The notes under the pieces are model-generated. The model was not told the DNA's origin. It saw nothing but the letters and a program-made list of their open reading frames with translations, and did not search any database. The translations under genes were made by a program, and so were the position numbers. A stretch of DNA of 64,000 bases from Clostridiaceae bacterium (GTDB taxonomy: Bacteria > Bacillota > Clostridia > Saccharofermentanales > Saccharofermentanaceae), in NCBI GenBank assembly GCA_012718915.1, contig JAAYBI010000012.1:1-64000 (forward strand), given 5' to 3'. This document shows positions 1,632 to 51,799 of the stretch, piece by piece (position 1 is the stretch's first letter; each line of letters opens with the position of its first letter).

Positions 1632-2384
1632 ATGGGTTATTATGCGCTTTTTGAAAGGAATCCAAGAATAGTGCCACTAAGTTCACCTGTATGCGACAGT
1701 CTCGTTGTAGAAGCTAAAAAGGGCGATGCGTTTTTGCGGCAACGTCTGGTTACCGAGTGGACGTCATGGCTTCACAAGCAAGCGCGTAAATGTTCGCACA
1801 ACGGTATTTCGGACTTCGATGAAACTTATCGGCTCGTCCTGAGCGCTTTTCATTCTGCCGTTGATCGTTACGACCCGGAAAGTGGTATCCCATTCGAGTT
1901 CTACGCGGCGCAAATTATTCGAAACCATCTGACAGATTGGAGACGCCTCCACCAAACCACGCCCGTCGAAAATAACCAGACACAATCAAACATCACACTA
2001 ATCAACGCTCAGACATCCGACGACCCCAGGCAACGATTGGCGTACGGAGACAAAAATATGCAAGACAGCATTATAAAAATTGAATATCAGTTGTCTCTGT
2101 TTAATACGTCACTCGCAAAACTTGCAAATCACTTTCCAAAAAAGCCGGATGATATGCAAAAATGCATCAAGCTTGCCAAAGCACTCGGATCGTCCGAGAC
2201 ATTGTTTAACCAATCTTTACTCGAGCGCAAATTGCCGATTCAAAGTTTGTCAGAGATTTGCAACGTGCCAACTGTATCTATCAAGCGTCATCGCTATTGT
2301 GTTTTATGTCTGGCTATACTATTGAGCAGCAATCTATTGTTAATACGTTCATATGTAGAGATCATGGAAAGGGAATTATCATGA
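1632..2384 (+). CDS. sigI: RNA polymerase sigma factor SigI
   Basis: This 250-residue alternative sigma factor has the length of SigI-family proteins. Region 2 lies in the N-terminal half (RQRLVTEWTSWLHKQARK, then FDETYRLVLSAFHSAVDRYDPESGIPFEFYAAQIIRNHLTDWRR); the C-terminal half holds the SigI-type DNA-binding domain (SLSEICNVPTVSIKRHR). The last four bases (ATGA, 2381-2384) overlap the start of rsgI, so the pair is translationally coupled, as in known sigI-rsgI operons. The ATG at 1632 has no clear ribosome-binding site. A GTG at 1671 has AAAGGA 11 bases upstream, so the true start is uncertain. SigI factors answer heat or envelope stress or, in cellulolytic clostridia, extracellular polysaccharides sensed by the partner RsgI. 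Confidence 0.85.
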   Translation: MGYYALFERNPRIVPLSSPVCDSLVVEAKKGDAFLRQRLVTEWTSWLHKQARKCSHNGISDFDETYRLVLSAFHSAVDRYDPESGIPFEFYAAQIIRNHLTDWRRLHQTTPVENNQTQSNITLINAQTSDDPRQRLAYGDKNMQDSIIKIEYQLSLFNTSLAKLANHFPKKPDDMQKCIKLAKALGSSETLFNQSLLERKLPIQSLSEICNVPTVSIKRHRYCVLCLAILLSSNLLLIRSYVEIMERELS

Positions 2385-3376
2385 AAGAGCAAGGCATTGT
2401 ACTGTCGGTCAATGATCATTCTGCCGTGATCTTCACAAAGACATGCCAATTAATCGAAATTGTAGCGCCGCCGAACATCTCGGTCGGACAAGAAATTGTC
2501 TATTCCAAAGACAATTCTGCGCATTTCGACAAGCCGCGAATTAAGACCCCTTTACTTGTCGCAACAATGGCACTGGCAGCGCTCTTTATCGGCATTTTTA
2601 TGAGCCAGAGCATTTTCAATAATCGTACGTACGCAATCATTTCCGTTGATATTAATCCCAGTGTTCAATTCTTGCTCAACAAAGATTTAGTCATAACCGA
2701 AGTCAAGGCCATGAATTCCGATGCCGCTAAATTGATATCCGAAGAGGTTTATCGTGGCCTGACTTGGCAAAACGGAGTCGATCAGTGGTTTGACGTTCTC
2801 GAAAACCACGGTTATGAATCCTCAGAAAGAATTTTGGTGGCCGCTGTTCTTCCGAACGATGATGCCGAACTAAAATATCAACTTGCAGCTCTTGGAGAGA
2901 GCGGATACGAGAGCGAAGCAATGAAAGCTCAGGTTCTGGTCGTATATTCAGACGATTTCGACCTCCCTGAAAAAGCCGCGAATTCAAATCTATCTATTGG
3001 TATGCAAATTCTTAAGAACTCTTCTGAATCATCCGGCATAGAATGGGATCCATCCGTGCTGAAGAATGCTGATTCTCAGGACTGGTTATTGATTACCGAA
3101 GCTCTGGAACGTGATTACAACGTATCGGTTAATCCATCGAGGAGCAGTGTAACGTCCAACTCAAACGCGACACAGACCTCGCCTCAGACAACCGCACCGT
3201 CCAACTCAAATGCGACACAGACCTCGCCTCAGGCAACCGAACCGTCCAACTCAAATGCGACGCAAACCTCACCTCAGGCAACCGAGCCATCCAACTCAAA
3301 TGCGACGCAAACGACCCAAAAAGAAATACCTTCAAATCCGAATGCGACCAAAAATTCAAACGGCAATAAAGGTTAA
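2381..3376 (+). CDS. rsgI: Anti-sigma factor RsgI
   Basis: This 331-residue single-pass membrane protein should hold SigI inactive at the membrane. Residues 1-50 form the cytoplasmic RsgI N-terminal domain (starting MKEQGIVLSVNDHSAVIF). Residues about 56-79 are the membrane segment. The extracellular side begins with the family hallmark YAIISVDINPSVQFLLN, followed by an alpha/beta domain to about residue 255. The end is a low-complexity Ser/Asn/Thr/Gln tail with three near-perfect 15-residue repeats and a partial fourth. No carbohydrate-binding module is visible, unlike the cellulosome RsgI proteins of Clostridium thermocellum. The ATG at 2381, inside the sigI stop codon, fits the domain start; a longer open frame upstream is ignored. 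Confidence 0.88.
   Translation: MKEQGIVLSVNDHSAVIFTKTCQLIEIVAPPNISVGQEIVYSKDNSAHFDKPRIKTPLLVATMALAALFIGIFMSQSIFNNRTYAIISVDINPSVQFLLNKDLVITEVKAMNSDAAKLISEEVYRGLTWQNGVDQWFDVLENHGYESSERILVAAVLPNDDAELKYQLAALGESGYESEAMKAQVLVVYSDDFDLPEKAANSNLSIGMQILKNSSESSGIEWDPSVLKNADSQDWLLITEALERDYNVSVNPSRSSVTSNSNATQTSPQTTAPSNSNATQTSPQATEPSNSNATQTSPQATEPSNSNATQTTQKEIPSNPNATKNSNGNKG
3155..3313 (+). repeat. 45-bp in-frame tandem repeat encoding the RsgI tail
   Basis: Units start at 3155, 3200 and 3245, with a partial fourth at 3290. Each encodes SNSNATQTSPQ followed by TTAP or ATEP. Copies differ by a few synonymous or single-residue changes, indicating expansion by replication slippage or unequal crossover. This is a coding minisatellite, not a CRISPR array. 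Confidence 0.9.
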
Positions 3377-3686
3377 CCTTTGAATCTCGAACGACTCAGA
3401 TGATGACATGGGCGCTGCATCGATAAGTGTGGCGCTCTTATCATGTTGAGAAAGCTCAGTCAAAATTCAGTCCCTTTGCCATACGAGCCCTCCGATTCCT
3501 ATAGAAAATCCAGCATAGCACCACTGCACGCTTGCACATATTACATCCCGATTTTCATTTGGACTCATTTTGACACACGACTGAAACGCAAGTTTAATTG
3601 ATCTGTGCGAAAATGTTATAAGTAATGTGTTCTCTCGTGTCAAGAAGAACTCACGAGCAAGAACCAACCATTCTTCGGAGGTGCAT
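3377..3686 (+). promoter_or_regulatory. rsgI-GH31 intergenic region with a sigma-A type promoter
   Basis: The 310-base gap holds a good promoter candidate for the GH31 gene: TTGACA at 3570-3575, a 17-bp spacer and TTTAAT at 3593-3598. The leader would be about 80 bases, ending in GGAGG before the ATG at 3687. A weak imperfect inverted repeat around 3408-3440 (GGCGCT/GCGCTC) could terminate rsgI but has no T-run. No gene is visible. Confidence 0.55.
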
Positions 3687-6008
3687 ATGAATCGGTACGA
3701 AAAACTCTCCCTTGTCGAGCGTCAAGTCTCAATCGAAAGCCCGAAAGAAATCATCAAAATCGCCCACCGCGACGGCGGAATAGAATTTAGCCTCTCCGTA
3801 GGTGACTCATCTTCTGCTTCGAGCGATACATTTCGACTAATAAAGTACAAATTTTCTTCGCCATTTCCGAATGCGATATCGGTTCAAATCAGTCACCACG
3901 CTGAAGATTCAACCCAAAATAGCGGTTTTCTTCCCAAAGATCGAACAGCATCAATGGTCATCAACGAGACCGATGATGAATATCAGATTTTTTCCGGTAA
4001 GACAGAGGCTCGAGTCTCCAAAACCGGCGCATTTTGCGTCGCATTCTTTCACGATGATAAATATTTAACACAAACCGGTTCAGCCTCAGCGCTCATATGC
4101 AAAAATGACGAAACCATCATCCGCGCTTCGCACACCATGGATGTCGGAGAATACTTCTATGGTCTCGGGGCAGAAGGCGGATCATTCACCAGAAACGGAA
4201 TGCGAAGCGGCTCAGACATTTTCTCGGATTGCTATATATCCGAAACTGCGACTCCCTATTACCTGTCATCAAAATCATATGGCATTCTGGTCAATCAAAT
4301 CGAGGGTATCCGCTTTGATTTCGGTCATTCAGTTCCCGGACAAATCGCTTTCGAGTCCGATTGCAACAAAATAGAGTACATCATTATAGCCGGAGAAACG
4401 AGCAAGCAAACGATCCGCAATTTTTCAGAAATGATCGGCAGGCCATCCCTTTCACCGGCTTGGTCGTTCGGCACCACTGTTTCGACAACTTCGGAATCAG
4501 AGTATGACGAGTCGTTTATATATGAGTCGATTGAAGGTTTACTTGAAAGAAATATTAACATTTCACTTCTTCACATCGACCGCAGGTGGATGCCTGATTA
4601 TGAGTGGACCGGTTTTCTTTGGGATTCACGACGTTTTCCTGACCCTGAAGATTTGATTCGCACGCTTCACGAGCGAGGCATTCGCGTTTGTCTTTGGATC
4701 GGACCTTACATTTCCGAGCAATCCTCATTTTATTCCGAGGCTATGGCCGCGAATTATTTCCTTCGCGATGCCGAAGGAAAACTCGTTCGAAGCGATGCAA
4801 TTCAACCGGGTGCTGCCTGGATTGATTTCACCCACCCTGCCGCCAAAGGATTTTATTTAAAATGCCTCGAGGAATTAAGTCGTATTGGAGTAGATACATT
4901 TTACATTGATGACGATTCACTGTCATTTCTCGAAAATTATGCAAGGTCGAATTCTAAGGTCATCTGTTTCTCTAACGGCCACAGGTTGAGAAAACCATCC
5001 GGCTACTATGGCTCTCTATTCACTCAGTCCGTCTTTGACTGGCTCGAAAAAAGAATGTCAAAGAGCCGAACTGTCATGTTTTCCGGACACTACGGCATAG
5101 GGACCCAGCGCTGCCCGACACATATAATCGGGCGATCCACGGCAGATTATTCCGGGATGCACAACGTTCTTACCAAGGGCTTATCCTTGTCCGTCTGCGG
5201 CTTCGGTTCATGGGGTCACGACATTGGTGGCAGCGAGCCCGGGTGCAACCCTGATTTGTTTATGCGATGGACGCAATTTGCTGCGCTTTCGCCTTTTGCA
5301 AGACTTCATGGAAGACAGCAATACAAATTACCGTGGATGTACGGCGAGGACGCCGTGGAAGTGTTTGATCATTTTACTCGCCTGCGCCATGGTCTTATGC
5401 CATACATATATTCTCTTGCCGTTGAAGCCACAAGCACGGGCGTACCGATGACGCGACCGATGTTCGTTGAATTTCCCAAGGACGAGACCTGTGCCAATCT
5501 TAACCGGCAGTATATGCTCGGCGGCACTCTTTTGTGTGCGCCGATTTTTGCCGCTGACGGTTGTGTCCGCTATTACGTACCCAAGGGCGTCTGGACCAAT
5601 ATTCTCACTTACGACCGTATCGAAGGACCTTGTTGGCGAAAAGAGGAGCATGATTATTTCACTTTGCCTCTACTGGCGCGCGAAAATACAGCACTGGTCA
5701 CCGGAAAATCAGACGATGTTGCCGAATATGATTATTTAGAAGGTGTCACGGTCACACTATTCGAACTTCAAGAAAATCGCCCCGTTGCCACCGAAGTGTT
5801 CTCGGCGGACGCTCAAAAGTCCGGAATTATCCGCGCGGTTCGAAAAGATAATCACATCGTTCTTCAGATGGACGGCTTCAGGGCATCTTGCCGCCTGATG
5901 CTGCCAAATATCTTTGATGTAAAGTCCACATCCGACGGCATCTCTGAGACTCACGACTGGGGAACAAGTGTCGTTTTCAGTGGCGGACGCATCGAGATTG
6001 TTTTATAG
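3687..6008 (+). CDS. Glycoside hydrolase family 31 protein, YicI-like, with altered catalytic site
   Basis: This 773-residue protein matches the length and domain order of the GH31 alpha-xylosidase YicI: an N-terminal beta-sandwich, a catalytic barrel (about 250-600), and C-terminal beta domains with motifs such as RQYMLGGTLLCAPIF. Barrel landmarks GHDIGG and RLHG are intact. The nucleophile motif, normally KTDFGE, reads YIDDDS, keeping the key Asp as D408. At the acid/base position the usual GGD reads IGR (R483), so the second catalytic Asp is missing. It may be a non-hydrolytic homologue, use another residue, or carry local compensating indels. The start at 3687 is chosen for its GGAGG; an in-frame ATG 20 codons upstream lacks one. 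No signal peptide, so cytoplasmic. Family assignment is firm; activity is not. Confidence 0.85.
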   Translation: MNRYEKLSLVERQVSIESPKEIIKIAHRDGGIEFSLSVGDSSSASSDTFRLIKYKFSSPFPNAISVQISHHAEDSTQNSGFLPKDRTASMVINETDDEYQIFSGKTEARVSKTGAFCVAFFHDDKYLTQTGSASALICKNDETIIRASHTMDVGEYFYGLGAEGGSFTRNGMRSGSDIFSDCYISETATPYYLSSKSYGILVNQIEGIRFDFGHSVPGQIAFESDCNKIEYIIIAGETSKQTIRNFSEMIGRPSLSPAWSFGTTVSTTSESEYDESFIYESIEGLLERNINISLLHIDRRWMPDYEWTGFLWDSRRFPDPEDLIRTLHERGIRVCLWIGPYISEQSSFYSEAMAANYFLRDAEGKLVRSDAIQPGAAWIDFTHPAAKGFYLKCLEELSRIGVDTFYIDDDSLSFLENYARSNSKVICFSNGHRLRKPSGYYGSLFTQSVFDWLEKRMSKSRTVMFSGHYGIGTQRCPTHIIGRSTADYSGMHNVLTKGLSLSVCGFGSWGHDIGGSEPGCNPDLFMRWTQFAALSPFARLHGRQQYKLPWMYGEDAVEVFDHFTRLRHGLMPYIYSLAVEATSTGVPMTRPMFVEFPKDETCANLNRQYMLGGTLLCAPIFAADGCVRYYVPKGVWTNILTYDRIEGPCWRKEEHDYFTLPLLARENTALVTGKSDDVAEYDYLEGVTVTLFELQENRPVATEVFSADAQKSGIIRAVRKDNHIVLQMDGFRASCRLMLPNIFDVKSTSDGISETHDWGTSVVFSGGRIEIVL

Positions 6009-23195: not shown

Positions 23196-25704
<2,509 letters not shown>

Positions 25705-25716
25705 TTGGAGATAAAG

Positions 25717-26337
25717 ATGTCATCACTGGATCTGATCACCAACAAAATCATTAGCGATGCCAATGCGTCCGCCGCATCACGGATTGAGCGTGCCAACGAA
25801 GAGGCTCGACTCATTTTCGAGCGAAAAGCAGCTGCTGCGACTTTAGAGTGCGAGCGACTCCGTGCTGAAGCCGATATTAATTTGGAGCGACTCCGTTTCA
25901 AAAGTGAATCCGCCGCCAAAGCCCTCTCCGGAAAGCGCATGCTTACCGAGAAGGGGCGTCTGATCGATGATTGTATCCTTAAGGCGAGAGAGATCATTGT
26001 GAATATGTCGACGGAAGAAGCGTTTCATATGATTTCGAAATTTGTCGGTCAGTCACTTATCGGCGTCCACCAGCCGGCAACGCTTATCCTTTCCGAAAAT
26101 GACTTAAAACGAATGCCTTCAAACTTCATTGAGAAGCTTGCTTCCGACATCGGTACTGCGATCATGCTCTCCGATCAGCCGGGTAATTTTGACGCCGGTT
26201 GTATCGTGAAGTGCGAACTCGTGGAGTATAACGGTACTCCGGACGCGCTAATCCGTGAACACCTCGACCAACTTAGTGATACCATCGGAGCAATACTCTT
26301 CTCCGATGAATCAAAAAGCAAATTAACCACCACTTGA
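25717..26337 (+). CDS. ntpE: V-type ATPase subunit E
   Basis: This 206-residue peripheral-stalk subunit has an N-terminal half of long charged helices (NASAASRIERANEEARLIFERKAAAATLECERLR) that pair with the small stalk protein and a globular C-terminal half that contacts subunit B. The ATG at 25717, behind TTGGAGA, is preferred to an in-frame TTG four codons upstream. Gap to K is 12 bases. Confidence 0.93.
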   Translation: MSSLDLITNKIISDANASAASRIERANEEARLIFERKAAAATLECERLRAEADINLERLRFKSESAAKALSGKRMLTEKGRLIDDCILKAREIIVNMSTEEAFHMISKFVGQSLIGVHQPATLILSENDLKRMPSNFIEKLASDIGTAIMLSDQPGNFDAGCIVKCELVEYNGTPDALIREHLDQLSDTIGAILFSDESKSKLTTT

Positions 26338-26351
26338 AAAGGAGTCAACTG

Positions 26352-27335
26352 TTGAAAGGTAAAGTCAGCGAGTCTCATTATGCATATTCGGTAACCGCCG
26401 CGCGAATTATGCAGCGCGCCTTGCTAAGCGACGCTGATTACTCACTACTCATCTCTGCGCCGGATGCTATTGCGGCATTGGCTGTGCTTTCTTCAAAGGG
26501 CTGGAAGACCCCGGCAGACATATCGCTCATTCCCCAAATGCTTGATGACGCGATGCAGGAAGTGTGGGATTTTTTGGTCGAATTTGCCCCTGATATCAAC
26601 ATCTTCAAGCCGTTCATACTTCGCAACGACTATCACAATCTCAAGGCGGGACTAAAGTGTTCGTTGAGCGAGCTTCAAGTGGATCGCTATTTTATTCGGC
26701 CGGCGCTAATTCCCCGGAAACTCATGAAAGAAGCATTTTTTGAAAATCATTTTTCTCTTCTCCCCGAGCCGTTTTCAACAGTTCTCAAACAAGCATATGA
26801 TGCATTGAGTGAGACTCGCGACGGCCAATTAGCGGACATCATTATCGATCGTGCCGCGATTGACGGCATGAATGGTGCAGCAAATGAAGTAAGAGAGCCA
26901 CTGGTTCGACATATTGTAGATACGCTCTGCGCTCTGTCTAATATCAAAATCGCTTTTCGCAGCGCCATGCTCGGCAAGAATAAGGACTTTCTAAATGCCG
27001 CCATAGGCAATTGCTCATCTTTAGATCGTAATTCATTAATTGAGTCCTCCGCAAAAGGATTTAATGAATTATTCCGATACCTGAAAACAACGCGGTATGC
27101 AGCACAAGTGGATATTCTTAAGACTTCCCCGATTGATTTCGAACGGCATTTTGAGGATCGAATCCTATCGTCGCTCGAGCCGATTCGCTTCGAAGCACTC
27201 GGTGCGAACCCTCTCATTGCATTTTTCCTTTTTAAGGAGGCAGAAATCAAAAATATCCGCTTAATTCTGGCCGGCAAACTGGCGCAAAGTTCACAAGAAG
27301 AGATTCGACAGAGGCTAAGGAGAATTTATGTATAA
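26352..27335 (+). CDS. ntpC: V-type ATPase subunit C (d-type)
   Basis: This 327-residue protein is the central-stalk foot that connects subunits D/F to the proteolipid ring. It is all-helical, with family segments ESHYAYSVTAARIMQRALLSDADYSLL near the start, ILRNDYHNLKAGLKC, and NPLIAFFLFKEAEIKNIRLILAGKL near the end. The likely start is TTG at 26352, seven bases after GGAG. The end overlaps the subunit F start by eight bases. Confidence 0.93.
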   Translation: MKGKVSESHYAYSVTAARIMQRALLSDADYSLLISAPDAIAALAVLSSKGWKTPADISLIPQMLDDAMQEVWDFLVEFAPDINIFKPFILRNDYHNLKAGLKCSLSELQVDRYFIRPALIPRKLMKEAFFENHFSLLPEPFSTVLKQAYDALSETRDGQLADIIIDRAAIDGMNGAANEVREPLVRHIVDTLCALSNIKIAFRSAMLGKNKDFLNAAIGNCSSLDRNSLIESSAKGFNELFRYLKTTRYAAQVDILKTSPIDFERHFEDRILSSLEPIRFEALGANPLIAFFLFKEAEIKNIRLILAGKLAQSSQEEIRQRLRRIYV

Positions 27336-27645
27336 GATTGCCGCAATGGGTGACCGCGACAGTATATCCGGATTTGCATCCGTCGGACTTGAGCTTTTCA
27401 CGTTGGATCAGATGCCTGACCCTTCTGAGACGCTTCACAACCTGGCTTCCAATCAATATGCAATTATATTGATTACCGAGGCTCTTGCCATATCCCTTAA
27501 GGATGATATTGACCGGTATAAAGACCGTCAGTTACCCGTAATTGTTCCGATTCCGGGTGTGTCCGGCGATTTCAATATTGGTATGAAAGCCATTTCCGAT
27601 GCCGTCGAGCGAGCGGTCGGAAGCGATATATTAAAAGATACATAA
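27328..27645 (+). CDS. ntpG: V-type ATPase subunit F
   Basis: This 105-residue protein is the small rotor subunit that binds subunit D. The sequence starts [16 protein letters not shown], with the central IILITEALA strand and the C-terminal helix [10 protein letters not shown] of the family. It overlaps the subunit C gene by eight bases, so it is translationally coupled. Confidence 0.95.
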
Positions 27646-27698
27646 TAGTCCGAAATTCTGAATTGCGGACATCTAAGAATGATATGAGGAGCAGACAA

Positions 27699-29468
27699 AT
27701 GAGTAATGGTACGATTCTGAAAATATCCGGTCCTTTGGTCGTTGCCCAAGGCATGCGGGACGCCAACATGTTTGATGTGGTTCGAGTCAGCAATCAGCGT
27801 CTGATTGGCGAGATTATCGAAATCCACGATGACCGCGCGTCGATTCAGGTATATGAAGAAACCTCCGGCCTTCGTCCCGGCGAGCCGGTTGAATCGACCG
27901 GTGTACCACTCTCGGTCGAACTCGGCCCGGGATTAATCGGCGGTATTTTTGACGGTATCCAAAGACCTCTGGAAGAGATTATGGCCGTCAGCGGCAATAA
28001 TCTTGAACGAGGTGTCGAAGTGCCTTCTCTGAACCGCGACAGAATCTGGAACTTTATTGCGACGGCAAACGCCGGCGATACGGTGACCGGAGGCGACACG
28101 CTCGGATATGTCAATGAAACCAATATTGTGAAGCACAAAATTCTTGTTCCGCCTGGTCTTTCCGGAACGCTTGTGCGTATCCAAGACGGCGAACACAAGC
28201 TCGATGATGTCATCGCAGATCTGGAAGATGCAAAAGGCCAAATCCATAGCCTTAATCTATATCAGCGTTGGCCGGTTCGTATCGGTCGTCCTTACAAGAA
28301 AAAATTCGCTCCGACCATGCCGCTCATTACCGGACAGCGTGTTATTGATAGTCTATTCCCTTTGGCTAAGGGCGGCGTCGCCGCGATTCCGGGTCCTTTC
28401 GGAAGCGGTAAAACCGTCACACAACATCAGTTAGCCAAGTGGGCGCAAGCCGATATTATTGTTTATATAGGATGCGGAGAACGCGGCAATGAGATGACCG
28501 ATGTTCTTAACGAATTCCCAGAGCTGATAGACCCCAATACCGGGGAATCACTGATGAAGCGCACGGTACTGATTGCAAACACTTCAGACATGCCGGTTGC
28601 CGCTCGAGAGGCTTCCATATATACAGGAATCACTATTGCCGAATACTTCCGCGACATGGGCTTTTCCGTCGCGCTCATGGCCGACTCGACTTCGCGTTGG
28701 GCTGAAGCCTTGCGAGAGATGTCGGGTCGCCTCGAGGAAATGCCCGGCGAAGAAGGATACCCTGCGTACCTGGCCAGCCGCTTGGCTCAGTTCTACGAGC
28801 GGGCAGGGCGTGTCAGCATATTGGGAAGCGAGGACCGAGAAGGTTCACTGTCCGCTATCGGCGCCGTATCGCCGCCGGGTGGTGATATTTCCGAACCGGT
28901 TTCACAGGCGACGCTTCGAATAGTCAAGGTCTTCTGGGGGCTTGATGCGCAGCTCGCTTACAAGCGCCATTTCCCGGCAATTAACTGGCTGACGAGTTAC
29001 TCCTTATATTCAGACTCATTGTCATCGTGGTTTAACGAAAATGTCGCCGCCGATTGGAATGCTTTCCGCGCTCGAATTCTTCTCATCTTGCAGGAAGAAG
29101 CCGAGCTTGAAGAAATTGTAAAACTGGTCGGAATGGACGCCCTGTCGCCTGCAGATCGTTTAAAGATGGAAGTCGCAAGGTCTATCCGCGAGGACTTTTT
29201 GCATCAACTGGCTTTTCACGAAATCGATACACACACTTCGCCATATAAGCAGTTTTTGATGATGAAGTTGATTTTACTATATTACGATAAAGCATCCGGA
29301 GCACTCGAGTTTGGGGCCGACATTGAAAATATTGTCAACTTGCCGATTCGCGAAAAAATCGGGCGTTTCAAATATGTTTCAGAGGACCTCATCCGTGAAG
29401 AAGCGGATTCCATCGAATCCGAGTTAGTTCACGAAATTGCCGAGACGATCGAGAAGGAGGGTTTTTGA
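27699..29468 (+). CDS. ntpA: V-type ATPase catalytic subunit A
   Basis: This 589-residue catalytic ATPase subunit contains the N-terminal barrel ([14 protein letters not shown]), the long A-subunit-specific insertion, P-loop GPFGSGKT (residues 232-239), CGERGNEM with the catalytic Glu, and the [27 protein letters not shown] signature. GAGGAG lies before the ATG at 27699; twelve upstream in-frame codons are ignored. Its TGA overlaps the subunit B start by one base. Confidence 0.97.
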
Positions 29469-30839
29469 TGCCAAAGGAGTATCGTACCATTAAAGAAGTC
29501 GCCGGTCCGCTGATGTTAGTCCAATCTGTCACGGATGTCAGCTATAACGAACTCGGAGAAATTGAATTGGCAAACGGTGAAGTCCGCCGTTGCCGAGTGT
29601 TGGAAATCAACGGTGAAGATGCATTGGTTCAGCTGTTCGAAAGCGGCGCGGGTATTAACCTATCTGACAGTAAGGTTCGCTTTCTGGGAAGACAACTTGA
29701 ACTTCCGGTGTCTTCGGATATGCTCGGTCGAATTTTCGACGGTATGGGCAAGCCCATTGACGACGGTCCCGCAATTATCCCCGAGGCGCGTCTGGACATC
29801 AACGGCACACCGATGAACCCGGCCGCTCGTAATTTCCCAATGGAGTTTATACAAACCGGCGTCTCTGCCATCGATGGACTGAACACCCTTGTACGTGGTC
29901 AAAAACTCCCGATTTTTTTCCGGAAGCGGTCTCCCGCACGCGAATCTTGCTGCTCAGACTGCTCGTCAGGCAAAAGTTCTGGGTACGAAGGAGCCTTTTG
30001 CGGTTGTCTTTGCCGCCATCGGCATCACCTTCGAGGAAGCCAATTTCTTTATGGAAAGCTTTCGCGAGACCGGTGCGATTGATCGTACCGTCTTATTCAT
30101 TAATCTGGCTAATGATCCGGCCATCGAGCGTATTGCAACGCCTCGAATGGCTCTGACTGCCGCTGAGTATCTTGCTTTCACTATGAACATGCATGTGCTG
30201 GTTATCATGACCGACATCACTAACTATGCAGATGCCCTTCGAGAGGTTTCCGCCGCTCGTAAGGAAGTGCCGGGAAGACGCGGTTATCCGGGTTACATGT
30301 ATACCGACTTGGCTTCTTTATACGAAAGAGCCGGTCGTCAAAAAGGTAAAGACGGCAGCATCACTTTGATTCCGATCCTGTCGATGCCGGAAGATGATAA
30401 GACCCATCCGATTCCTGATTTGACGGGATATATCACGGAGGGCCAGATCATTTTGAGCCGCGAGCTATATCGAAAGAGCATTATGCCACCAATCGACGTA
30501 CTTCCTTCTCTGTCTCGTCTCAAAGATAAAGGAATCGGTGACGGCAAGACCCGCGAGGATCATTCAAACACCATGAACCAGCTTTTCTCGGCATATGCCC
30601 GAGGTAAGGACGCCAAAGAGTTGATGGTCATCCTCGGCGAAGCGGCGCTGACCGATATGGACAAACTATATGCCAAGTTTGCCGATACTTTCGAGAAAGA
30701 ATATATTTCTCAAGGCTTTGCCACTGATCGGAGTATTGAAGAGACTCTGGACTTGGGTTGGAAGCTCTTGCGTATTTTACCTCGAAGCGAGCACAAGCGC
30801 ATCAGCGACAAGATTTTGGATCAGTATTACGACGCATAA
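29468..30839 (+). pseudogene. ntpB: V-type ATPase subunit B, frameshifted in this sequence
   Basis: Subunit B is the non-catalytic nucleotide-binding partner of subunit A. Here the frame is interrupted at a T7 run (29913-29919). The upstream frame reads through [10 protein letters not shown] and then becomes nonsense; one base later the other frame continues [20 protein letters not shown] to the normal end [10 protein letters not shown]. Removing one T restores a 456-residue protein of normal family length with conserved [11 protein letters not shown]. Downstream parts such as [23 protein letters not shown] are intact. It could be a sequencing or assembly error, a real mutation, or a slippage site rescued during transcription. 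Since A, D and all other subunits are intact, error or rescue is more likely than loss. Confidence 0.93.
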
Positions 30840-43453: not shown

Positions 43454-45238
43454 TTATTCGCAATCGCCAATTTTACGGAAACGCTGATATCGGGCTTCCA
43501 AGGCGCTATCCTTATCCTTTTGATACGCTTTTTCGATGCGTTCAACTGCGCCGAGCAAATAGGTCTTGATTGTCATACCCATTCGCTCAGGACCGGAGTG
43601 CGCGCCGCCGTCCGGCTCGGGTAATATGACATCGCAGATTCCCAGATTTTTGAGATCTATCGCAGTAATGTGAGCCGTATCGGCAGCTTCACTCTCTCGG
43701 GATGGGTCTTTCCATACCAGTGACGCAAAACCGCGAGGTGAGATAACCGAGTAGATGGCATTTGATGTCATTGCCAGTTCATCCGCCACCGCAATTCCGA
43801 GCGCACCGCCACTGCCGCCTTCTCCGATGACCAAACTGATAATCGGCACACGAATCGGCATCATTTCCATGAGGTTGCGTGCAATGGCTTCTCCCTGCCC
43901 GCGCTCCTCGGCGCCTACGCCGCAATACGCACCGGGGGTATCAATAAATGTGATAATCGGGCGATTGAATTTTTCGGCCTGTTTCATCGCTCTGAGCGCT
44001 TTTCGATAGCCTTCCGGATGTGGCATGCCGTAATTGCATGCTTGATTCTCAAGTAATGTCTTACCCTTGCGATGACCGATCACGGTCACCGGTTTGCCGT
44101 TGAGTCGGGCTACGCCGGTAAACATCGCGGTATCGTCCGCAAAATATCGATCGCCGTGAACTTCATGAATATCCGTGAAAATCATCGGCAGATAGTCCGT
44201 CAGCGTCGGGCGATCCTTCTGACGAATGATTGCCAAGCACTCCGAACCCGAACTGCGATGTTTTGATGATGCGGGCATCCGTCCGCGTGGTGCATTAGCT
44301 TCGGCACTTTTGATTTTTTCACCGGAATGCAAGGACAATATCGAGGTCAGGCGACTTCTCATTTCATCTCGGGGGACAATCATATCAAGGAACCCGTGCT
44401 TCTGCAGAAATTCTGACCTCTGGAAATCGTCCGGCAAAGCCTGTGCGATGGTTCCTTCAATAACGCGCCTGCCCGCAAATCCGATCAACGTATCCGGCTC
44501 CGAGAGTATTATGTCGCCGAGCGAGGCAAAACTAGCCGTCACGCCGCCGGTGGTCGGATCAGTTAACACACTGATATAGAGGAGTCCGGCACGGCTGTGC
44601 CTTTCGACTGCAGCAGCGGTCTTGGCCATCTGCATCAGAGACACAATGCCTTCTTGCATACGCGCACCGCCGGATGCCGCAAATAAGACGACCGGCAATT
44701 TTTTAGCCGTTGCCGTTTCAAAAAGACGAGTAATTTTCTCGCCCACCGCGGAGCCCATTGAGCCCATCAGAAAATTCGAGTCCATCGCTCCGACCATGCA
44801 TGAATAGCCGCCGATTTGAGCCTCACCGACGATTACGGCTTCGGTCATGCCGGTTTTTTCGCGCAATTTGCGCAAACGATGATCATAGCGGGGGAAGGAA
44901 ATCGGGTCTTTTCCGAATAGGTGTTCCCACAGCTCTTCGAAGGAATTTTCGTCAACCGTCATTGCGAGTCGCTCGCGAGCGTTTACACGAAAACCATGTC
45001 CGCAATGCAAGCAAACATTGCGATTCATCTCGAAATCCTCGCGCAGCATTACCCCTTGGCAAGACGTACAGCGAACCCAAAGATCATCGGGGATGGGCTT
45101 CATGTAACTGAATTGATCCTTTATCCCCGTTTGTCCGACTTCGCCCTTGACGCTGTTCGGCTCGGATGCCTGTATATCGTGCATAAATTTGCGATTATCC
45201 TGCACTCGTTTTTTGATCAATGAAAATGTATCTTCCAT
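43454..45238 (-). CDS. accDA: Acetyl-CoA carboxylase carboxyltransferase, fused beta-alpha (AccD-AccA)
   Basis: This 594-residue protein transfers carboxyl from biotin to acetyl-CoA, making malonyl-CoA. The N-terminal half is AccD with a four-Cys zinc finger (C57, C60, C76, C79), PISFPRYDHRL and GGARMQEGIVSLMQMAKT. A low-complexity linker (NAPRGRMPASSKHRSSGS) joins it to the AccA half with TDIHEVHGDRYFADD, FIDTPGAYCGVGAEERGQGEAIARNL and IGEGGSGGALGIA. Most bacteria encode the two as separate genes. The start at 45238 follows GAGGG. Last gene of the leftward fab operon. Confidence 0.96.
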   Translation of the reverse strand: MEDTFSLIKKRVQDNRKFMHDIQASEPNSVKGEVGQTGIKDQFSYMKPIPDDLWVRCTSCQGVMLREDFEMNRNVCLHCGHGFRVNARERLAMTVDENSFEELWEHLFGKDPISFPRYDHRLRKLREKTGMTEAVIVGEAQIGGYSCMVGAMDSNFLMGSMGSAVGEKITRLFETATAKKLPVVLFAASGGARMQEGIVSLMQMAKTAAAVERHSRAGLLYISVLTDPTTGGVTASFASLGDIILSEPDTLIGFAGRRVIEGTIAQALPDDFQRSEFLQKHGFLDMIVPRDEMRSRLTSILSLHSGEKIKSAEANAPRGRMPASSKHRSSGSECLAIIRQKDRPTLTDYLPMIFTDIHEVHGDRYFADDTAMFTGVARLNGKPVTVIGHRKGKTLLENQACNYGMPHPEGYRKALRAMKQAEKFNRPIITFIDTPGAYCGVGAEERGQGEAIARNLMEMMPIRVPIISLVIGEGGSGGALGIAVADELAMTSNAIYSVISPRGFASLVWKDPSRESEAADTAHITAIDLKNLGICDVILPEPDGGAHSGPERMGMTIKTYLLGAVERIEKAYQKDKDSALEARYQRFRKIGDCE

Positions 45239-45268
45239 GAATTTTCCCTCTAATCTCAAAGTAGCGAT

Positions 45269-46636
45269 TTATTCCGCCGATGTTTTTTCGAAAAGCACAT
45301 CTTTTTTTCTATCAATATAGGTATTGTCATAATGACCGAGAATAAAGTCCTTTTCTCTTAATATGGCCAGATGAAAATCGATGTTGGTCTTGACGCCGAC
45401 AATAATAAATTCCATTAGTGCGCGACGCATCCGCATAATTGCTTCCTCGCGAGTCGGTGCCCATACAATGACCTTGGCCAGCAGTGAATCATAGAACGGC
45501 GGTATGGTGTAGCCCTGATAAATAGCGCTGTCGATGCGAATACCCTGACCGCCCGGCATATGTAGTGTACTGATGGTACCGGGACAGGGGCGGAAGTCAA
45601 AACCCGGGTCTTCCGCATTAATTCGACACTCGATAGAGTGGCCGCGGAAAACAATATCCCTCTGCGAAAACCTCAGGATTTCTCCTGCGGCGACGCGGAT
45701 CTGCTCTTGAATCAGATTGACACCTGTAATGGCTTCGCTGATCGGATGCTCAACCTGTATGCGGGTATTCATTTCCATAAAATAAAAATTACGGTCTTTG
45801 TCAACTAAAAACTCAATCGTTCCGACGCCTTGGTAGCCGATTTTTCTCGCGAGGCACACCGCGGCCTGCCCCATTCGCATCCTTAACTCGTCGGTCATGA
45901 AAGGTGATGATGCCTCTTCTATAATCTTCTGATTGCGTCGTTGGACCGAGCAATCGCGGTCTCCGAGATGGACGACATGCCCATACTCGTCGCACAAGAG
46001 CTGAATCTCAATGTGACGCGGTTCGATGATGAGCTTTTCGATATAGACTTCATCGTCTCCGAAACATGCCTTTGCTTCGGTCTTGGCCATCTGAAAGGCG
46101 CTCTTGAAATCGGCTTCGCAATACGCCGCGCGCATACCCCGACCGCCACCGCCCTGAGATGCTTTGATCAGGACCGGATAACCGATTCTTTCGGCATCAC
46201 GCATTGCAGCTGTAAGTTCTTTTGCGGCGCCTTGAGATCCGGGAATAACCGGTATCCCGGCTTGCTCGGCCGTTTTTCTTGCATTGGCCTTATTGCCCAT
46301 CATATCCATAATCTTGGCATCGGGACCGATGAATTTAATTTGGCATTTTTCACACAGTCTCGCGAAAACGGCATTTTCGGATAGAAATCCGAAGCCGGGG
46401 TGAATCGCCTCAGCGCCGGTGGTCAGACACGCCGACAGAATGGCTTGCATATTAAGATAGCTATCCTTAGAGGCATCCGGACCGATACAGACACACTCGT
46501 CCGCCAGTTGAGCATGAAGTGCGTTACGGTCAATTTCGGAACAGACCGCGACGGTCTGTACCCCCATTTCACGACATGCGCGAATCACAGTAACGGCGAT
46601 TTCGCCACGGTTGGCGATCAGTATTTTACGAAACAT
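45269..46636 (-). CDS. accC: Biotin carboxylase (AccC)
   Basis: This 455-residue ATP-grasp enzyme carboxylates biotin on AccB using bicarbonate. It starts MFRKILIANRGEIAVTVIRACRE; other features are the glycine loop KASQGGGGRGMR, HIEIQLLCDEYGHVVHLGDRDCSVQRRNQKIIEEASS and MEMNTRIQVEHPISEAITGVNLI. Length is normal. AAAAGGAG precedes the ATG. It lies between fabZ and accDA in the fab operon. Confidence 0.97.
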   Translation of the reverse strand: MFRKILIANRGEIAVTVIRACREMGVQTVAVCSEIDRNALHAQLADECVCIGPDASKDSYLNMQAILSACLTTGAEAIHPGFGFLSENAVFARLCEKCQIKFIGPDAKIMDMMGNKANARKTAEQAGIPVIPGSQGAAKELTAAMRDAERIGYPVLIKASQGGGGRGMRAAYCEADFKSAFQMAKTEAKACFGDDEVYIEKLIIEPRHIEIQLLCDEYGHVVHLGDRDCSVQRRNQKIIEEASSPFMTDELRMRMGQAAVCLARKIGYQGVGTIEFLVDKDRNFYFMEMNTRIQVEHPISEAITGVNLIQEQIRVAAGEILRFSQRDIVFRGHSIECRINAEDPGFDFRPCPGTISTLHMPGGQGIRIDSAIYQGYTIPPFYDSLLAKVIVWAPTREEAIMRMRRALMEFIIVGVKTNIDFHLAILREKDFILGHYDNTYIDRKKDVLFEKTSAE

Positions 46637-46664
46637 AATCGTCTCCTTTTGTCACGCTGTCGAA

Positions 46665-47114
46665 TTAATCTTTTTTTGCATCACCGATGGCAAACATTAT
46701 TTCCCCGCTGACGCAGAGCTTGCCGTTGACGAAAGCTTTACCTTCACCGAAGCCGATCGGCCCGCGCTGACGCGTCATCGTCACTTCCAGTCTTAATGTA
46801 TCTCCGGGAAAAACACTTTGTTTGAAGCGCACTTTGTCGATACCTGCAAAAAATGCAATTTTGCCTTTGTTCTCGGGCTTCGACAAAGCGACAATCGCAC
46901 CGGCCTGAGCCATAGCTTCGACAATGAGTACACCAGGCATGACCGGCATATCCGGAAAGTGGCCGCGAAAATAGTCTTCATCTACACGAACGTGCTTGAG
47001 CGCAACGATATGCGCATCGTCTTTTTCGAGCACTTCATCAACGAGAATAAAAGGCTCTCTGTGCGGGATAATCCCCTTGATATCTTCTTGATTCATTATA
47101 GCTATATCGCTCAT
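46665..47114 (-). CDS. fabZ: (3R)-hydroxyacyl-ACP dehydratase
   Basis: This 149-residue hot-dog fold enzyme removes water from 3-hydroxyacyl-ACP in elongation. Active-site His and Glu are in [32 protein letters not shown] is the N-terminal signature. AAAGGGGT precedes the ATG. It is three bases from accB. Confidence 0.97.
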
Positions 47115-47117
47115 GCT

Positions 47118-47648
47118 TTACCCCTTTGTGGCGCCCGGCTCGATGATGAATAAGGCTTGTCCAAATTCAACCCGACATGCGCGGTCTGCAAGAATTTCAG
47201 TGACTACTCCGGATACCGGGCTGGTCACTTCGTTCATTAGCTTCATGGCCTCAACGATACAGAGGACGTCGCCTTTCTGGACGTAATCACCGATGGATAC
47301 ATAAGGGTCTTGGTCCGGCGCCGGCGAATCATAAAACACACCGACCACCGGAGATGTGACAGGGTGTCCGGTCGATGGTGCGGGCTTCTCAGAAGGCTCA
47401 GTATCTGTGAATGGTCTGCGATCCGATCCGCAAGTATTATTTGAAGTATATGAATTTTGAGACATCGGAGACGCTTCGAAAATTTCGCATTCGCGGAAAA
47501 TGGCGATTTTGTTTTCGCCGCTTCCCATACGGAATTCGCTGACGCCTTCTTTTCGCATGACCGCCATTAGTTCTTTGAGCTGTTCAAAAGTTAGTCCGGC
47601 GGTTATCGATTTGTCGGATATATGTTCTGTCGGATTGGTTGAAGCCAT
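47118..47648 (-). CDS. accB: Biotin carboxyl carrier protein
   Basis: This 176-residue carrier holds biotin on Lys136 in the EAMKLM motif at its C-terminus. The N-terminal helix (FEQLKELMAVMRKEGVSEFRM) docks the carboxylase, and a Ser/Thr/Pro-rich linker (about 60-100) joins it to the biotinyl domain beginning TSPVVGVFYDSPAPDQDPYVSIGD. One base separates its start from the fabF stop. Confidence 0.97.
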   Translation of the reverse strand: MASTNPTEHISDKSITAGLTFEQLKELMAVMRKEGVSEFRMGSGENKIAIFRECEIFEASPMSQNSYTSNNTCGSDRRPFTDTEPSEKPAPSTGHPVTSPVVGVFYDSPAPDQDPYVSIGDYVQKGDVLCIVEAMKLMNEVTSPVSGVVTEILADRACRVEFGQALFIIEPGATKG

Positions 47649-47649
47649 A

Positions 47650-48939
47650 TTATTGTCCTACCTTTCTGAATAAGAGCGAGCCGTTTTGTCCTCCGAATCC
47701 GAGCGAATTCGATATGGCAGCACGTATATTTTTCTTGACTGCGATGTTCGGCGTATAGTTGAGATCGCATTCCGGGTCCGGTTCAGAGAGCCCAATAGTC
47801 GGTGGCACCACGCCGTCGCGAATGGCGAGTATTGCCGCAATGGCCTCAACCCCGCCGGCGGCGCCGAGAAGGTGTCCGGTGACAGATTTGGTTGAGCTAA
47901 TCGAAACCGTACGTGCCAGTTCTTCACCCATGGCAAACTTGACGGCTAATGTCTCGTATTTATCATTGAGTGGTGTACCGGTGCCGTGTGCATTAATATA
48001 GTCGACTTCGTCTGCAGAAATGCCACCTTCTCGCATCGCCAATTTCATGGCCATGCCGGCACCTTTTCCTTCGGGATCCGGGCTCGTAATATGATAAGCA
48101 TCCGCCGTCGCACCGTAACCGGAGACCTCAGCGTAAATATGCGCGCCGCGCTCAAGTGCGTGCTCCATCGTTTCCATAAAGACAATACCTGCACCCTCAC
48201 CCATGACAAATCCGCCGCGACGGGCATCGAATGGAAGTGAGCCCATATTCGGGTCGTCGGTCATATTCAGGGCCTTCATGTTTGTAAAACCGGCCAACGC
48301 AATTCTAGTAATCGGCGCTTCGGCACCACCGGCCACAGCGGCCTTCAGGTAACCGAGTTTAATTTTGTGAAACGCTTCACCGATGGCGTGGGTTCCCGAT
48401 GCACAAGCCGTGGTAACACAATAATTCGCGCCTTTGAGATGATGAATCATCGATACATGCCCGGCAGCTAGATTGCTAATCATCATCGGGATAAACAACG
48501 GTGATATACGATCCGGACCTCTGCCGACCAGAAGTTCTTCAAATTGATCTTGAAGCGTAGACAATCCACCGACGCCCGAGCCAATAATGACTCCTGTATC
48601 GAAAGGGTCCATAGTTGAAAAGTCGATTTTAGACATCTCAATGGCTTCTTGAGCCGCCGCTACTGCGAAGTGGCAGTAACGATCCATCCGACGAGCTTCT
48701 TTGCGATCCAAAAAATTGCCGGGATCAAAATCCTTGACCTGTGCAGCCAGTCGAACCCGTGTACCCGGATACGCTTCAGAATCGATTAATCCGATACCGT
48801 GACGGCCGTTCACAACGGCGTCCCAAAATGAATCAACGGTATTGCCGACAGGTGTGACGGCTCCCATTCCGGTAATAACGACTCTCGGACGACCTTGCTG
48901 ATCGAAACATTCGTTTTTGTTAGTGGGCATACTAGCCAT
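47650..48939 (-). CDS. fabF: 3-oxoacyl-ACP synthase II
   Basis: This 429-residue condensing enzyme adds two carbons from malonyl-ACP to growing acyl-ACP. The catalytic triad is Cys179 (TTACASGTHAIGEA), His in NAHGTGTPLNDKYE and His in TGHLLGAAGG; GFGGQNGSLLFRK is the C-terminal signature. The ATG at 48939 follows GGAGG; a 22-codon longer frame is ignored. It is in the usual place between fabG and accB. Confidence 0.97.
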   Translation of the reverse strand: MASMPTNKNECFDQQGRPRVVITGMGAVTPVGNTVDSFWDAVVNGRHGIGLIDSEAYPGTRVRLAAQVKDFDPGNFLDRKEARRMDRYCHFAVAAAQEAIEMSKIDFSTMDPFDTGVIIGSGVGGLSTLQDQFEELLVGRGPDRISPLFIPMMISNLAAGHVSMIHHLKGANYCVTTACASGTHAIGEAFHKIKLGYLKAAVAGGAEAPITRIALAGFTNMKALNMTDDPNMGSLPFDARRGGFVMGEGAGIVFMETMEHALERGAHIYAEVSGYGATADAYHITSPDPEGKGAGMAMKLAMREGGISADEVDYINAHGTGTPLNDKYETLAVKFAMGEELARTVSISSTKSVTGHLLGAAGGVEAIAAILAIRDGVVPPTIGLSEPDPECDLNYTPNIAVKKNIRAAISNSLGFGGQNGSLLFRKVGQ

Positions 48940-48976
48940 GTTAAAACCTCCTGAGACTATTGCTGTTGTTCTGATA

Positions 48977-49732
48977 TCAAATAACCAGTCCGCCGGAGAC
49001 CTCAATCACCTGTCCGGTGACATAAGCACTCTCGTCAGAAGCCAAAAATGCAACGACATTCGCTACATCTTCCGGCTTTCCGAAGCGAGCCATCGGAATC
49101 CGCTCCATTGCGGCTTTCTTTGTCTCTTCTCCGAGCGCATCGGTCATGTCGGTCTCTATAAATCCCGGGGCAACGGCATTCACCGTAATATTGCGCTTGG
49201 CCATTTCTTTTGCCATGCTTTTCGTCATACCGATCAATCCGGCTTTCGACGCAGAGTAGTTCGCCTGACCCGCGTTGCCATAAACACCTGACACAGATGA
49301 AATATTGATAATTCGACCTTTTCTCTGCTTGACCATGATCGGCAGACAAAGAGAAGATGTGCTGAAAGCACCGGTCAAATTCGTATCAATAACCGATGTA
49401 AATTGCTCCCGGCTCATACGCATCGCCAATCCGTCACGGGTCATTCCGGCGTTGTTGACCAAGACATCCACACGACCGAAGGTCTCTTTGGCGACATCGA
49501 TAATTCTTTTGCAATCGGCCTCGAGCGAAATATCAGCTGCGACCAATACGACTTGAATGTTTGAAAAGGCCGCCTCGCATTGTGATTTGACCATTTCTGC
49601 CTCTGAAGCACCGGAACGATACGTCAAGACCAGATTATAGCCTTTGGAAGCGAGTACTCGAGCAATCGCGGCACCCAATCCTCTGGATGCACCGGTCACA
49701 ATGGCAACGGGACTGATAATGCTCTCTGTCAT
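48977..49732 (-). CDS. fabG: 3-oxoacyl-ACP reductase
   Basis: This 251-residue short-chain dehydrogenase reduces 3-oxoacyl-ACP with NADPH. Motifs are TGASRGLG, NNAGMTRD, catalytic Ser in NISSVSGVYGN and YSASK. AGGAGG precedes the ATG at 49732, which overlaps the fabK stop by one base, so the two are coupled. Normal length and order. Confidence 0.97.
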   Translation of the reverse strand: MTESIISPVAIVTGASRGLGAAIARVLASKGYNLVLTYRSGASEAEMVKSQCEAAFSNIQVVLVAADISLEADCKRIIDVAKETFGRVDVLVNNAGMTRDGLAMRMSREQFTSVIDTNLTGAFSTSSLCLPIMVKQRKGRIINISSVSGVYGNAGQANYSASKAGLIGMTKSMAKEMAKRNITVNAVAPGFIETDMTDALGEETKKAAMERIPMARFGKPEDVANVVAFLASDESAYVTGQVIEVSGGLVI

Positions 49733-50667
49733 CAGATCGATCCTCCTACTTTGATGCAAGCCTCATACTCGGCAAACATTTCTTCAATGATATCTTTGAC
49801 CGGCATGATCTCTTTGACTAGCCCGGCGATTTGTCCGGCCATGAAAGAACCTTCCTTTAGATCGCCTTCTTTAACGGCTTTGCGAAGAGAACCAAGAGTC
49901 ACGGCCTCCATCTCTTCGAACGTCGCGCCGGCCTTTTCCATTTTGTCGAGTTCAAGTGTCAATGCATTCTTTATGCAGCGTACCGGATGTCCGCCGCTTC
50001 TTCCCGTCACCCGAGAATCAATATCTCGGGACTTGACGACCAACTCCTTGTAATTCTGATGAATCGTACATTCGCAAGAAGCCAAGAAGCGCGTTCCAAC
50101 CTGGACACCGGATGCGCCCAGCATGCTGACTGCAGCGATACCGCGGCCATCAGCGATACCACCCGCGGCGATGACCGGAATCCGGACCGAATCGACGACC
50201 TGGGGAATCAAAGTCATCGTGGTCAATTCACCGATGTGCCCACCGGCCTCTGTGCCTTCAGCGACAATCGCGTCCGCTCCCAGCCCTTCCATTCGTTTAG
50301 CCAATCCTGTGGATGCAACGACCGGAACCACTTTGATCCCTGCGCTTTTCCAGGCCTCAATATATTTTCCAGGGGAACCCGCACCGGTGGTGACGACGGC
50401 CACCTCTTCCTCGATGACGACTTGGGCTAAATCCGGTGTATGTGGGTTCATCAACATGATGTTGACGCCAAACGGCTTATCGGTCAGTGATTTCGCCTTC
50501 CGAATCTCTGCGCGCAATAATTCTTTGTCCATTGAGCCTGCGGCAATCAATCCGAGGCCGCCCGCATCCGAAACGGCCGAAGCCAGATTAGCATCAGCCA
50601 CCCATGCCATGCCGCCCTGTATGATCGGATATTTTATGCCTAATAGTACTGTAAGAGTTGTTTTCAT
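49732..50667 (-). CDS. fabK: Enoyl-ACP reductase II (FabK)
   Basis: This 311-residue flavoenzyme reduces enoyl-ACP; FMN-dependent FabK takes the place of FabI, so the organism may be insensitive to FabI-targeted triclosan (inference). The TIM-barrel motifs are IIQGGMAWVADANLASAVSDAGGLGLIAAG, FGVNIMLMNP, VAEGTEAGGHIGE and VIAAGGIADGRGIAAVSMLGASGVQVGTRFLASCE. Second gene of the leftward fab operon. Confidence 0.96.
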   Translation of the reverse strand: MKTTLTVLLGIKYPIIQGGMAWVADANLASAVSDAGGLGLIAAGSMDKELLRAEIRKAKSLTDKPFGVNIMLMNPHTPDLAQVVIEEEVAVVTTGAGSPGKYIEAWKSAGIKVVPVVASTGLAKRMEGLGADAIVAEGTEAGGHIGELTTMTLIPQVVDSVRIPVIAAGGIADGRGIAAVSMLGASGVQVGTRFLASCECTIHQNYKELVVKSRDIDSRVTGRSGGHPVRCIKNALTLELDKMEKAGATFEEMEAVTLGSLRKAVKEGDLKEGSFMAGQIAGLVKEIMPVKDIIEEMFAEYEACIKVGGSI

Positions 50668-50710
50668 TTGATCCTCCTCGCCGAGACCGGCTTTTCGAAA
50701 TGAATGTCTA

Positions 50711-51736
50711 TTAAAATATACAAACGCAGGCGCCGTATGTCAGTCCACCGCCGAATCCGGTAAATACCAATGTATGACCGCGACGAATATGCCCGGAACG
50801 AACTTCTTTATCAAGACAAATCGGAATGGAGGCCGACGACGTATTGCCGGTCTCCGCTATATAAGAAATCATCTTTTCTGTCGGAATGCCCAATCGCTTG
50901 GCAGACGCTTGTAGGATGCGGTCATTGGCTTGATGCGGCACAATAAAATCAATGGCTTCTAGCGGCAGATTTGCTCTCTCAACGGCTTTTTCTACGGCCA
51001 AAGGCATCGCTGTCGTCGCAAAACGATATACTTCCGGGCCTTTCATGGATAAATATTTACCGGTCTCATGCCCAAAACGATCCGGCTCGAAAACCATATC
51101 CTCGGGAATGAACGGGTGATTTGCGCGCTCAAACGCTTTTCCGGTCATGAACTCACCCCCGGTACCGTCCGCACCTATGAAGGATTCGTAGATATTCGCC
51201 TCAGGCAAGTCCGAGCCATCCGCTTGACGATTGGACACAATGGCTGCACCTGCGCCGTCTCCGAATAACACGCAAGTTCTGCGATCTTCAAAATCGACAA
51301 GCTTGGTCAGGCTCTCCGACGATACAATGAGCCCAGTCTTTCTTTCATCCGTGTTTAGATATCGCATAGCAATATCTAATGCCTGCACAAAGCCCGTACA
51401 TGCCGCATTGAGATCAAAGCAAAATGCATTCTTGGCACCCACCTGCGCCTGGACGATAGACGCCATATTCGGCGTCGTATAATCCGCCGATAAAGTCGTA
51501 GCGATAATGAAATCAATATTATCCGGATCCATCTCTGCCATTTCTATGGCATTACTTGCCGCATGAATCGCCATGTCCGACGTCGTTTCTGTGACACAAT
51601 AATGTCGTTTCGAAATTCCCGTCCGTGAGGTAATCCACTCGTCACTGGTGTCCATAATCTTGGCGAGCATCTCGTTATCCACAACCAGTTCCGGCAAAAA
51701 GGAGCCGGTGCCCAATATTTTATAAGGTATTTCCAA
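50711..51736 (-). CDS. fabH: 3-oxoacyl-ACP synthase III
   Basis: This 341-residue enzyme starts fatty-acid synthesis by joining acetyl-CoA and malonyl-ACP. The catalytic Cys is C113 in NAACTGFVQAL, His in VPHQANDRI and Asn in TGNTSSASIP. The start is TTG at 51736, eight bases after GGAGG, giving the normal N-terminus MEIPYKILGTGSFLPE. First gene of the leftward operon, downstream of the FabT-like boxes. Confidence 0.96.
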   Translation of the reverse strand: MEIPYKILGTGSFLPELVVDNEMLAKIMDTSDEWITSRTGISKRHYCVTETTSDMAIHAASNAIEMAEMDPDNIDFIIATTLSADYTTPNMASIVQAQVGAKNAFCFDLNAACTGFVQALDIAMRYLNTDERKTGLIVSSESLTKLVDFEDRRTCVLFGDGAGAAIVSNRQADGSDLPEANIYESFIGADGTGGEFMTGKAFERANHPFIPEDMVFEPDRFGHETGKYLSMKGPEVYRFATTAMPLAVEKAVERANLPLEAIDFIVPHQANDRILQASAKRLGIPTEKMISYIAETGNTSSASIPICLDKEVRSGHIRRGHTLVFTGFGGGLTYGACVCIF

Positions 51737-51799
51737 ATCTTAATCCTCCGATAAATCGGCATTCGGTTATTAATAGAAATCAATAGCCCCTTGCAATTC

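Follow-up and report, generated by a model that had tools for sequence, protein, structure and literature searches.

A bacterial YicI-type GH31 gene that has lost its acid/base aspartate and probably encodes a pseudoenzyme

The GH31 gene at 3687-6008 of the window (the whole stretch of 64,000 nucleotides that was analyzed) encodes a protein of the YicI type from which the general acid/base aspartate is missing. We propose that it is probably a pseudoenzyme of GH31 descent, retained for a role other than hydrolysis. As read from the sequences, the loss reaches far beyond two motifs and beyond the window genome: proteins of the same clade lacking this aspartate were found in 81 of the 115 genomes searched in a family that is probably Saccharofermentanaceae. 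The gene and its relevant features are the following.

3687..6008, + strand: GH31 (YicI-type) gene, 773 aa, without the acid/base Asp
3677..3683, + strand: Shine-Dalgarno-like GGAGGTG ahead of the ATG at 3687, from sequence reading
4578..4580, + strand: Asp corresponding to YicI D306, retained in the window protein and gone from the other two defective genera
4902..4919, + strand: YIDDDS, the nucleophile motif, whose Asp at 4908-4910 corresponds by alignment to YicI D416
5085..5087, + strand: Gly codon at the position of YicI R466
5124..5135, + strand: IIGR, with Ile for W479 and Arg (5133-5135) for the acid/base D482
5145..5147, + strand: Asp of STAD, opposite YicI N486; candidate relocated acid, not kept in the other defective genera
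5217..5231, + strand: HDIGG, kept
5292..5294, + strand: Pro at the position of YicI S535, a derived residue of the defective rows
5301..5312, + strand: RLHG (YicI R538-G541), kept
5931..5966, + strand: distal C-terminal segment around STSDGISETHDWGT, from alignment columns

The ATG at 3687, with its GGAGGTG, is the more likely start of the gene; an alternative ORF of 793 aa (3627-6008) begins with GTG at 3627. Using phmmer, the protein matched E. coli YicI (PDB 1we5) over residues 70-791 of the 793-aa ORF with an E value of 5e-133, and the next kind of solved GH31 structure trailed at 9e-58. This alignment confirmed the full-length likeness to YicI, with HDIGG and RLHG kept, that the original prediction had described. 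In Pfam, PF01055 matched with 224.8 bits and the two flanking GH31 domains, PF21365 and PF13802, with 67.9 and 30.4 bits, all above cut-off. By sequence and fold, the window protein is thus a GH31 member, with the PF01055 TIM barrel and its flanking N- and C-terminal domains. By catalytic residues, it has the nucleophile Asp and lacks the general acid/base Asp. A search of its own 2.2-Mb genome returned this gene as the single GH31 barrel match.

The AlphaFold2 model of the window protein (pLDDT 76, pTM 0.79), which rests on an alignment of 14 sequences, had YicI as its best match (TM 0.88, VIA Z 46.5), and the best Foldseek and VIA matches were GH31 structures. A model of one protein from another defective genus (g2), resting on an alignment of 16 sequences (pLDDT 83, pTM 0.84), also matched YicI best, with a TM of 0.85-0.87. 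Structure prediction shows the defective proteins keeping the GH31 fold.

The active site is where the window protein departs from YicI. HIIGRSTADY aligned gap-free on HWGGDCYANY, placing R483 (CGA, 5133-5135) opposite YicI D482, which bears out the earlier claim that an arginine stands in place of the proton donor. YIDDDS aligned on KTDFGE, also as claimed, and the nucleophile Asp is still present there as D408 (4908-4910). FSGHYG aligned on FARSAS; the R-S-x-S segment, rightly described as altered, reads G-H-Y-G, with R466 changed to Gly. The other pocket positions compared are those generally attributed to YicI. Here C307 is replaced by Arg, W380 by Ile, K414 by Tyr, W479 by Ile and F515 by Ser, and in all at least seven compared positions, D482 included, are replaced. 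D306, W345, D416, H510, D511, R538 and H540 are kept. In the window protein, the F417 and D185 columns depend on the alignment used and were kept out of the argument.

We searched 115 genomes of the family and 188 of the order, collected the GH31 proteins around the matches and added relatives; collapsing duplicates reduced 207 hits to 163 rows. Asp was found at position 482 in all 64 canonical rows and in all 13 active-type g2 paralogues, and in none of the 81 defective rows. The residue is Arg or His in the window genus (g1; 2/2 genomes) and Asn in 22/22 rows of genus g4 (22 of its 23 genomes); the 57 g2 rows (57/85 genomes) vary, with Thr, Asn, Lys, gaps and other states. Intact sister copies, three rows from g5 and one from g3 (4 genomes; L004-L007), keep the Asp, as does one further row from another GH31 subgroup. 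Twelve further GH31 proteins, drawn from other subgroups within this family and order, all kept D416, R466, D482, D511 and H540 (12/12). That the defective copies are confined to one clade holds for the rows examined, which are a subset of the order's GH31 proteins. The nucleophile D416 is kept in 2/2 rows of g1, 22/22 of g4 and 27/57 of g2, and each of the two larger genera has its own invariant residues: H466, N482 and N511 in g4, and E414, D511 and R538 in g2.

Carriers of close relatives include Candidatus Scatonaster coprocaballi (Saccharofermentanaceae according to NCBI), several rumen/biogas MAGs and two labelled Mageeibacillus; g2 is presumably Saccharofermentans. Among the 49 g2 genomes of at least 90% completeness, 38 have the defective copy and 11 are without the gene, which is therefore not essential everywhere. 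The genomes G029 (g4, 98% complete) and G003 (g3, 86% complete) yielded no copy of this GH31. The g2 proteins L080-L090 (without L089) are active-type YicI paralogues of ~670 aa, in which the distal C-terminal domain is missing. By a hand count in which the paralogue status of some fragments is uncertain, 18 of 27 paralogue-bearing g2 genomes also carry the defective copy.

In a tree of 66 rows, which long branches may distort, all proteins of the family locus grouped together (SH-aLRT 100). The intact g3 and g5 copies branched first and the defective copies of g4, g1 and g2 fell together (SH-aLRT 98); g1 and g4 still grouped (SH-aLRT 97) after removal of the pocket columns and the long-branched g2. 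The stem branches of the defective groups measured 0.44-1.05, compared with 0.10 for the intact sister genus. Constraining g1 to group with g5 gave an AU p of 0.062 on the full tree and of 0.0495, a borderline rejection, without the pocket columns and g2; a separate loss in the window genus is rejected only weakly by these trees. Two derived residues bear on the same question. S535P occurs in 81/81 defective rows, 0/4 intact family rows and 0/77 canonical or paralogue rows, and G531A in 71/81 defective rows and in none of the 4 intact family or 77 canonical and paralogue rows. Because both are shared by defective rows only, they argue for a single origin of the loss.

Gene order agrees in part with one shared locus. 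The comparison took in 60 loci, 14 of them with wide flanks, and not all neighbors appear in each locus. A CCA-adding enzyme gene adjoins the GH31 gene, or lies one gene off, in most of the g2 and g4 loci examined, and lies some genes away in g5. On the upstream side, the window and g5 both carry an ABC-transporter gene, a regulator, and the sigma and RsgI genes; on the downstream side, both carry enolase. The neighbors in the g3 locus are unrelated. As clues to function, the CCA-adding enzyme, an iron-type alcohol dehydrogenase, an alpha/beta-hydrolase, a pilin-like protein and the sigma/RsgI pair point nowhere clear, and the neighbors of the active-type paralogues offered no useful contrast.

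The sigma/RsgI pair of the window, at 1632-3376 directly upstream of the GH31 gene, consists of a sigma-70-region-2 protein and an RsgI-like anti-sigma factor (PF23750, PF12791), and also occurs in the intact sister genus. At 3153-3306, in the tail of the anti-sigma gene, a 45-base unit is repeated 3.4 times (92% matches) and yields SNSNATQTSPQATEP repeats. Further along the window, reading of the ORFs suggested a V-type ATPase gene cluster (23196-30839), a fatty-acid synthesis cluster (43454-52738) that includes an acetyl-CoA carboxyltransferase protein, apparently a fusion, at 43454-45259, and an 851-aa fusion of an acyl-activating enzyme, a carrier domain and an acyltransferase (61009-63564).

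We calculated dN/dS by the Nei-Gojobori method for the closest non-overlapping pairs, at most 10 per group, out of 100 (g4), 133 (g2) and 8 (paralogues) usable pairs. Values were 0.034-0.146 in g4 (ten pairs), 0.033-0.098 in g2 (ten) and 0.046-0.087 in the active-type paralogues (three), indicating purifying selection in the two larger defective genera. For the barrel they were 0.04-0.13, 0.02-0.12 and 0.03-0.04, respectively; the barrel is therefore somewhat relaxed yet still constrained. In the window pair, formed with the only other genome of the genus compared (the sibling, whose protein is 78% identical), dS is saturated, and selection was read from the codon-position pattern: over 767 codons, differences fell at 122 first, 70 second and 406 third positions. 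ORFs are intact in almost all copies and split in 2 of the 57 g2 copies (G138, G146).

Selection appears to have left the sugar pocket itself. For a set of fifteen pocket positions, we compared the mean entropy with that of the barrel and of random sets. Canonical rows gave 0.01 bit for the pocket versus 0.94 for the barrel. The g4 pocket reached 1.32 versus 0.84, a variability matched by 0.7% of random sets, and the g2 pocket 1.51 versus 1.85, which is about average, 6% of random sets being as conserved. Consequently, the sugar pocket is no longer the target of selection, apart from the few invariant polar residues of each genus.

At the other end of the protein, several distal C-terminal columns are common to intact and defective family members and are mostly gaps in canonical YicI-like rows. 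Identity of the distal C-terminal domain exceeded that of the barrel in 2/241 canonical, 144/231 g4 and 237/238 g2 pairs, in samples of at most 250 pairs from which pairs with a domain under 40 residues were dropped and in which the canonical C-termini were trimmed (mean 80 versus ~107 residues). We rejected this shift as proof of a functional site, as a faster barrel alone would suffice to produce it. Nor does dN/dS show the C-terminal domain to be more constrained, and the conservation shift remains a hint.

Our model suggests that the acid/base Asp disappeared from a cytoplasmic YicI-type alpha-glycosidase in the ancestor of three or more genera. These would then have diverged, g1 acquiring Arg or His, g4 acquiring Asn and losing D306, R466 and H540, and g2 replacing nearly all catalytic positions. 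The case for a pseudoenzyme is that a catalytic residue has been lost within a lineage of intact homologues while the gene is under purifying selection. As the predicted fold is kept under this selection, the protein would have a function with no need for glycoside hydrolysis, and with no general acid it should cleave ordinary glycosides very poorly. We judge a non-catalytic role most likely, because the pocket is largely replaced and the relatives have decayed further. This role would most likely be binding, either of a ligand in the remodelled mouth of the barrel or of a partner through the beta-sandwich domains. Among the options in the original prediction, the inactive protein is the best supported, since the active site decays further in relatives while the gene is kept; the acid/base loss on which that prediction was built stood, and its indel explanation did not. 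The loss of most pocket residues speaks against its other enzymatic options, a transglycosidase or phosphorolytic enzyme, and a carbohydrate sensor, the remaining option, is conceivable.

One objection to a pseudoenzyme is that the nucleophile Asp persists in every row of g1 and g4. If any chemistry, residual or new, takes place, the window genus is its likeliest setting: the acid has been lost there, and D306, D416 and H540, part of the pocket's polar floor, remain. A repurposed catalyst, phosphorylase- or transferase-like, would use D408 as nucleophile, with Arg or His favoring an anionic leaving group or acceptor, for example a sugar phosphate, for which protonation is unnecessary. In its favor, the window genus retains the equivalents of D416, D306, R538 and H540, and Arg and His, the two substitutes, are basic; moreover, the YicI D482A mutant is reported in a review to form aryl xylosides from activated donors still (PMC4693232). 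The invariant polar residues of g4 and g2 could likewise belong to a new active site. However, R466, W479, K414, W380, F515 and C307 are replaced, the related genera carry Asn or a variety of residues at this position and lose D306, and no sugar-phosphate or sugar-transport genes were seen among the neighbors read. We consider such a catalyst unlikely. Arg as a conserved new catalytic residue was rejected, since the sibling has His; orthologues with the same Arg, for which the original prediction had called, did not appear, the sole close one having His and other genera Asn or various residues.

Two further readings are distinctly less probable than the repurposed catalyst. One holds that the protein is still a glycosidase whose acid/base role has moved to D487, the Asp of STAD, or to another acid. 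D487 is common to both members of the window genus, but it lies four residues further on, opposite YicI N486 rather than D482, and does not occur in the other defective genera; the substrate pocket has changed as well. The other, to which we give equally little weight, is a decaying gene on its way to loss and without present function. The long stem branches and the g2 genomes without the gene are consistent with decay, but the ORFs are intact in almost all copies, dN/dS is low throughout and the window pair carries the codon-position pattern of selection.

Least of all, at a probability close to nil, the missing Asp might be a sequencing or assembly artefact, for which the out-of-frame GGCGAT at 5131-5136 had suggested two compensating indels around 5110-5150; this is refuted by the separately assembled sibling, which aligns codon for codon over 5058-5183 with no indel and has GGA CAT (Gly-His) in the same frame opposite the window's GGG CGA. 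With Asp in every canonical and paralogue row and Gly-His in the sibling, the sequences exclude both chance and artefact.

The pseudoenzyme reading has consequences for annotation. Against the NCBIfam model NF007940 (YicI alpha-xylosidase equivalog), the window protein scored 649 with a cut-off of 606. The window protein, its sibling and three sampled g4 proteins all lie above the cut-off (649-788), so they would be counted as active xylosidases despite the missing acid; four g2 proteins tested lie below it (329-446). For the window protein, the name alpha-xylosidase is probably wrong as a function, and such miscounting would affect genome and metagenome annotation. More broadly, a natural series of intact and progressively disarmed orthologues is a direct test of the change from enzyme to non-enzyme. 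It is conceivable, though we hold this only tentatively, that a single GH31 locus within this one family records every stage of the change from enzyme to pseudoenzyme, from intact copies through loss of the acid/base residue and then of the pocket to loss of every catalytic residue, with a second, non-catalytic job, perhaps performed through the distal C-terminal domain, predating the loss of catalysis.

GH31 enzymes in general work by a two-Asp mechanism (PMC8063059), and in YicI D482 is the acid/base (PMC4693232). The window protein shares with YicI (PDB 1we5, 1xsi) the full-length domain architecture, the nucleophile Asp, HDIGG and RLHG, at ~30% identity and a predicted-fold TM of 0.86-0.89; it differs in the Arg at D482 and in the replacement of R466, W479, K414, W380, C307 and F515. 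According to PMC4693232, GH31 acid/base mutants, YicI D482A among them, serve as ligases with activated donors; PMC9061262 describes D394A, an acid/base mutant made in another GH31 enzyme, as inactive, and reports a hexamer for YicI. The engineered, thioglycoligase-type D482A resembles the window protein in lacking the acid/base Asp and keeping the nucleophile (PMC4693232), but it was made in the laboratory and its pocket is otherwise intact, whereas the window protein has lost most of its pocket. A literature search covering few subscription journals found no report of a bacterial GH31 pseudoenzyme. In insects, GH31 proteins that lack catalytic residues have been described, namely NET37 clade IV and mosquito and sandfly lysosomal-type proteins (PMC8063059), so the kind is already known. 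Like the window protein, these are natural homologues with a catalytic Asp replaced; unlike it, they are eukaryotic and of other subgroups, whereas the present case is a bacterial clade with intact sisters and graded loss. Those intact sister copies (L004-L007) share with the window protein the clade, the distal C-terminal columns and, for one genus, the flanking genes, and differ from it in that the acid/base Asp is present and the YicI pocket almost complete.
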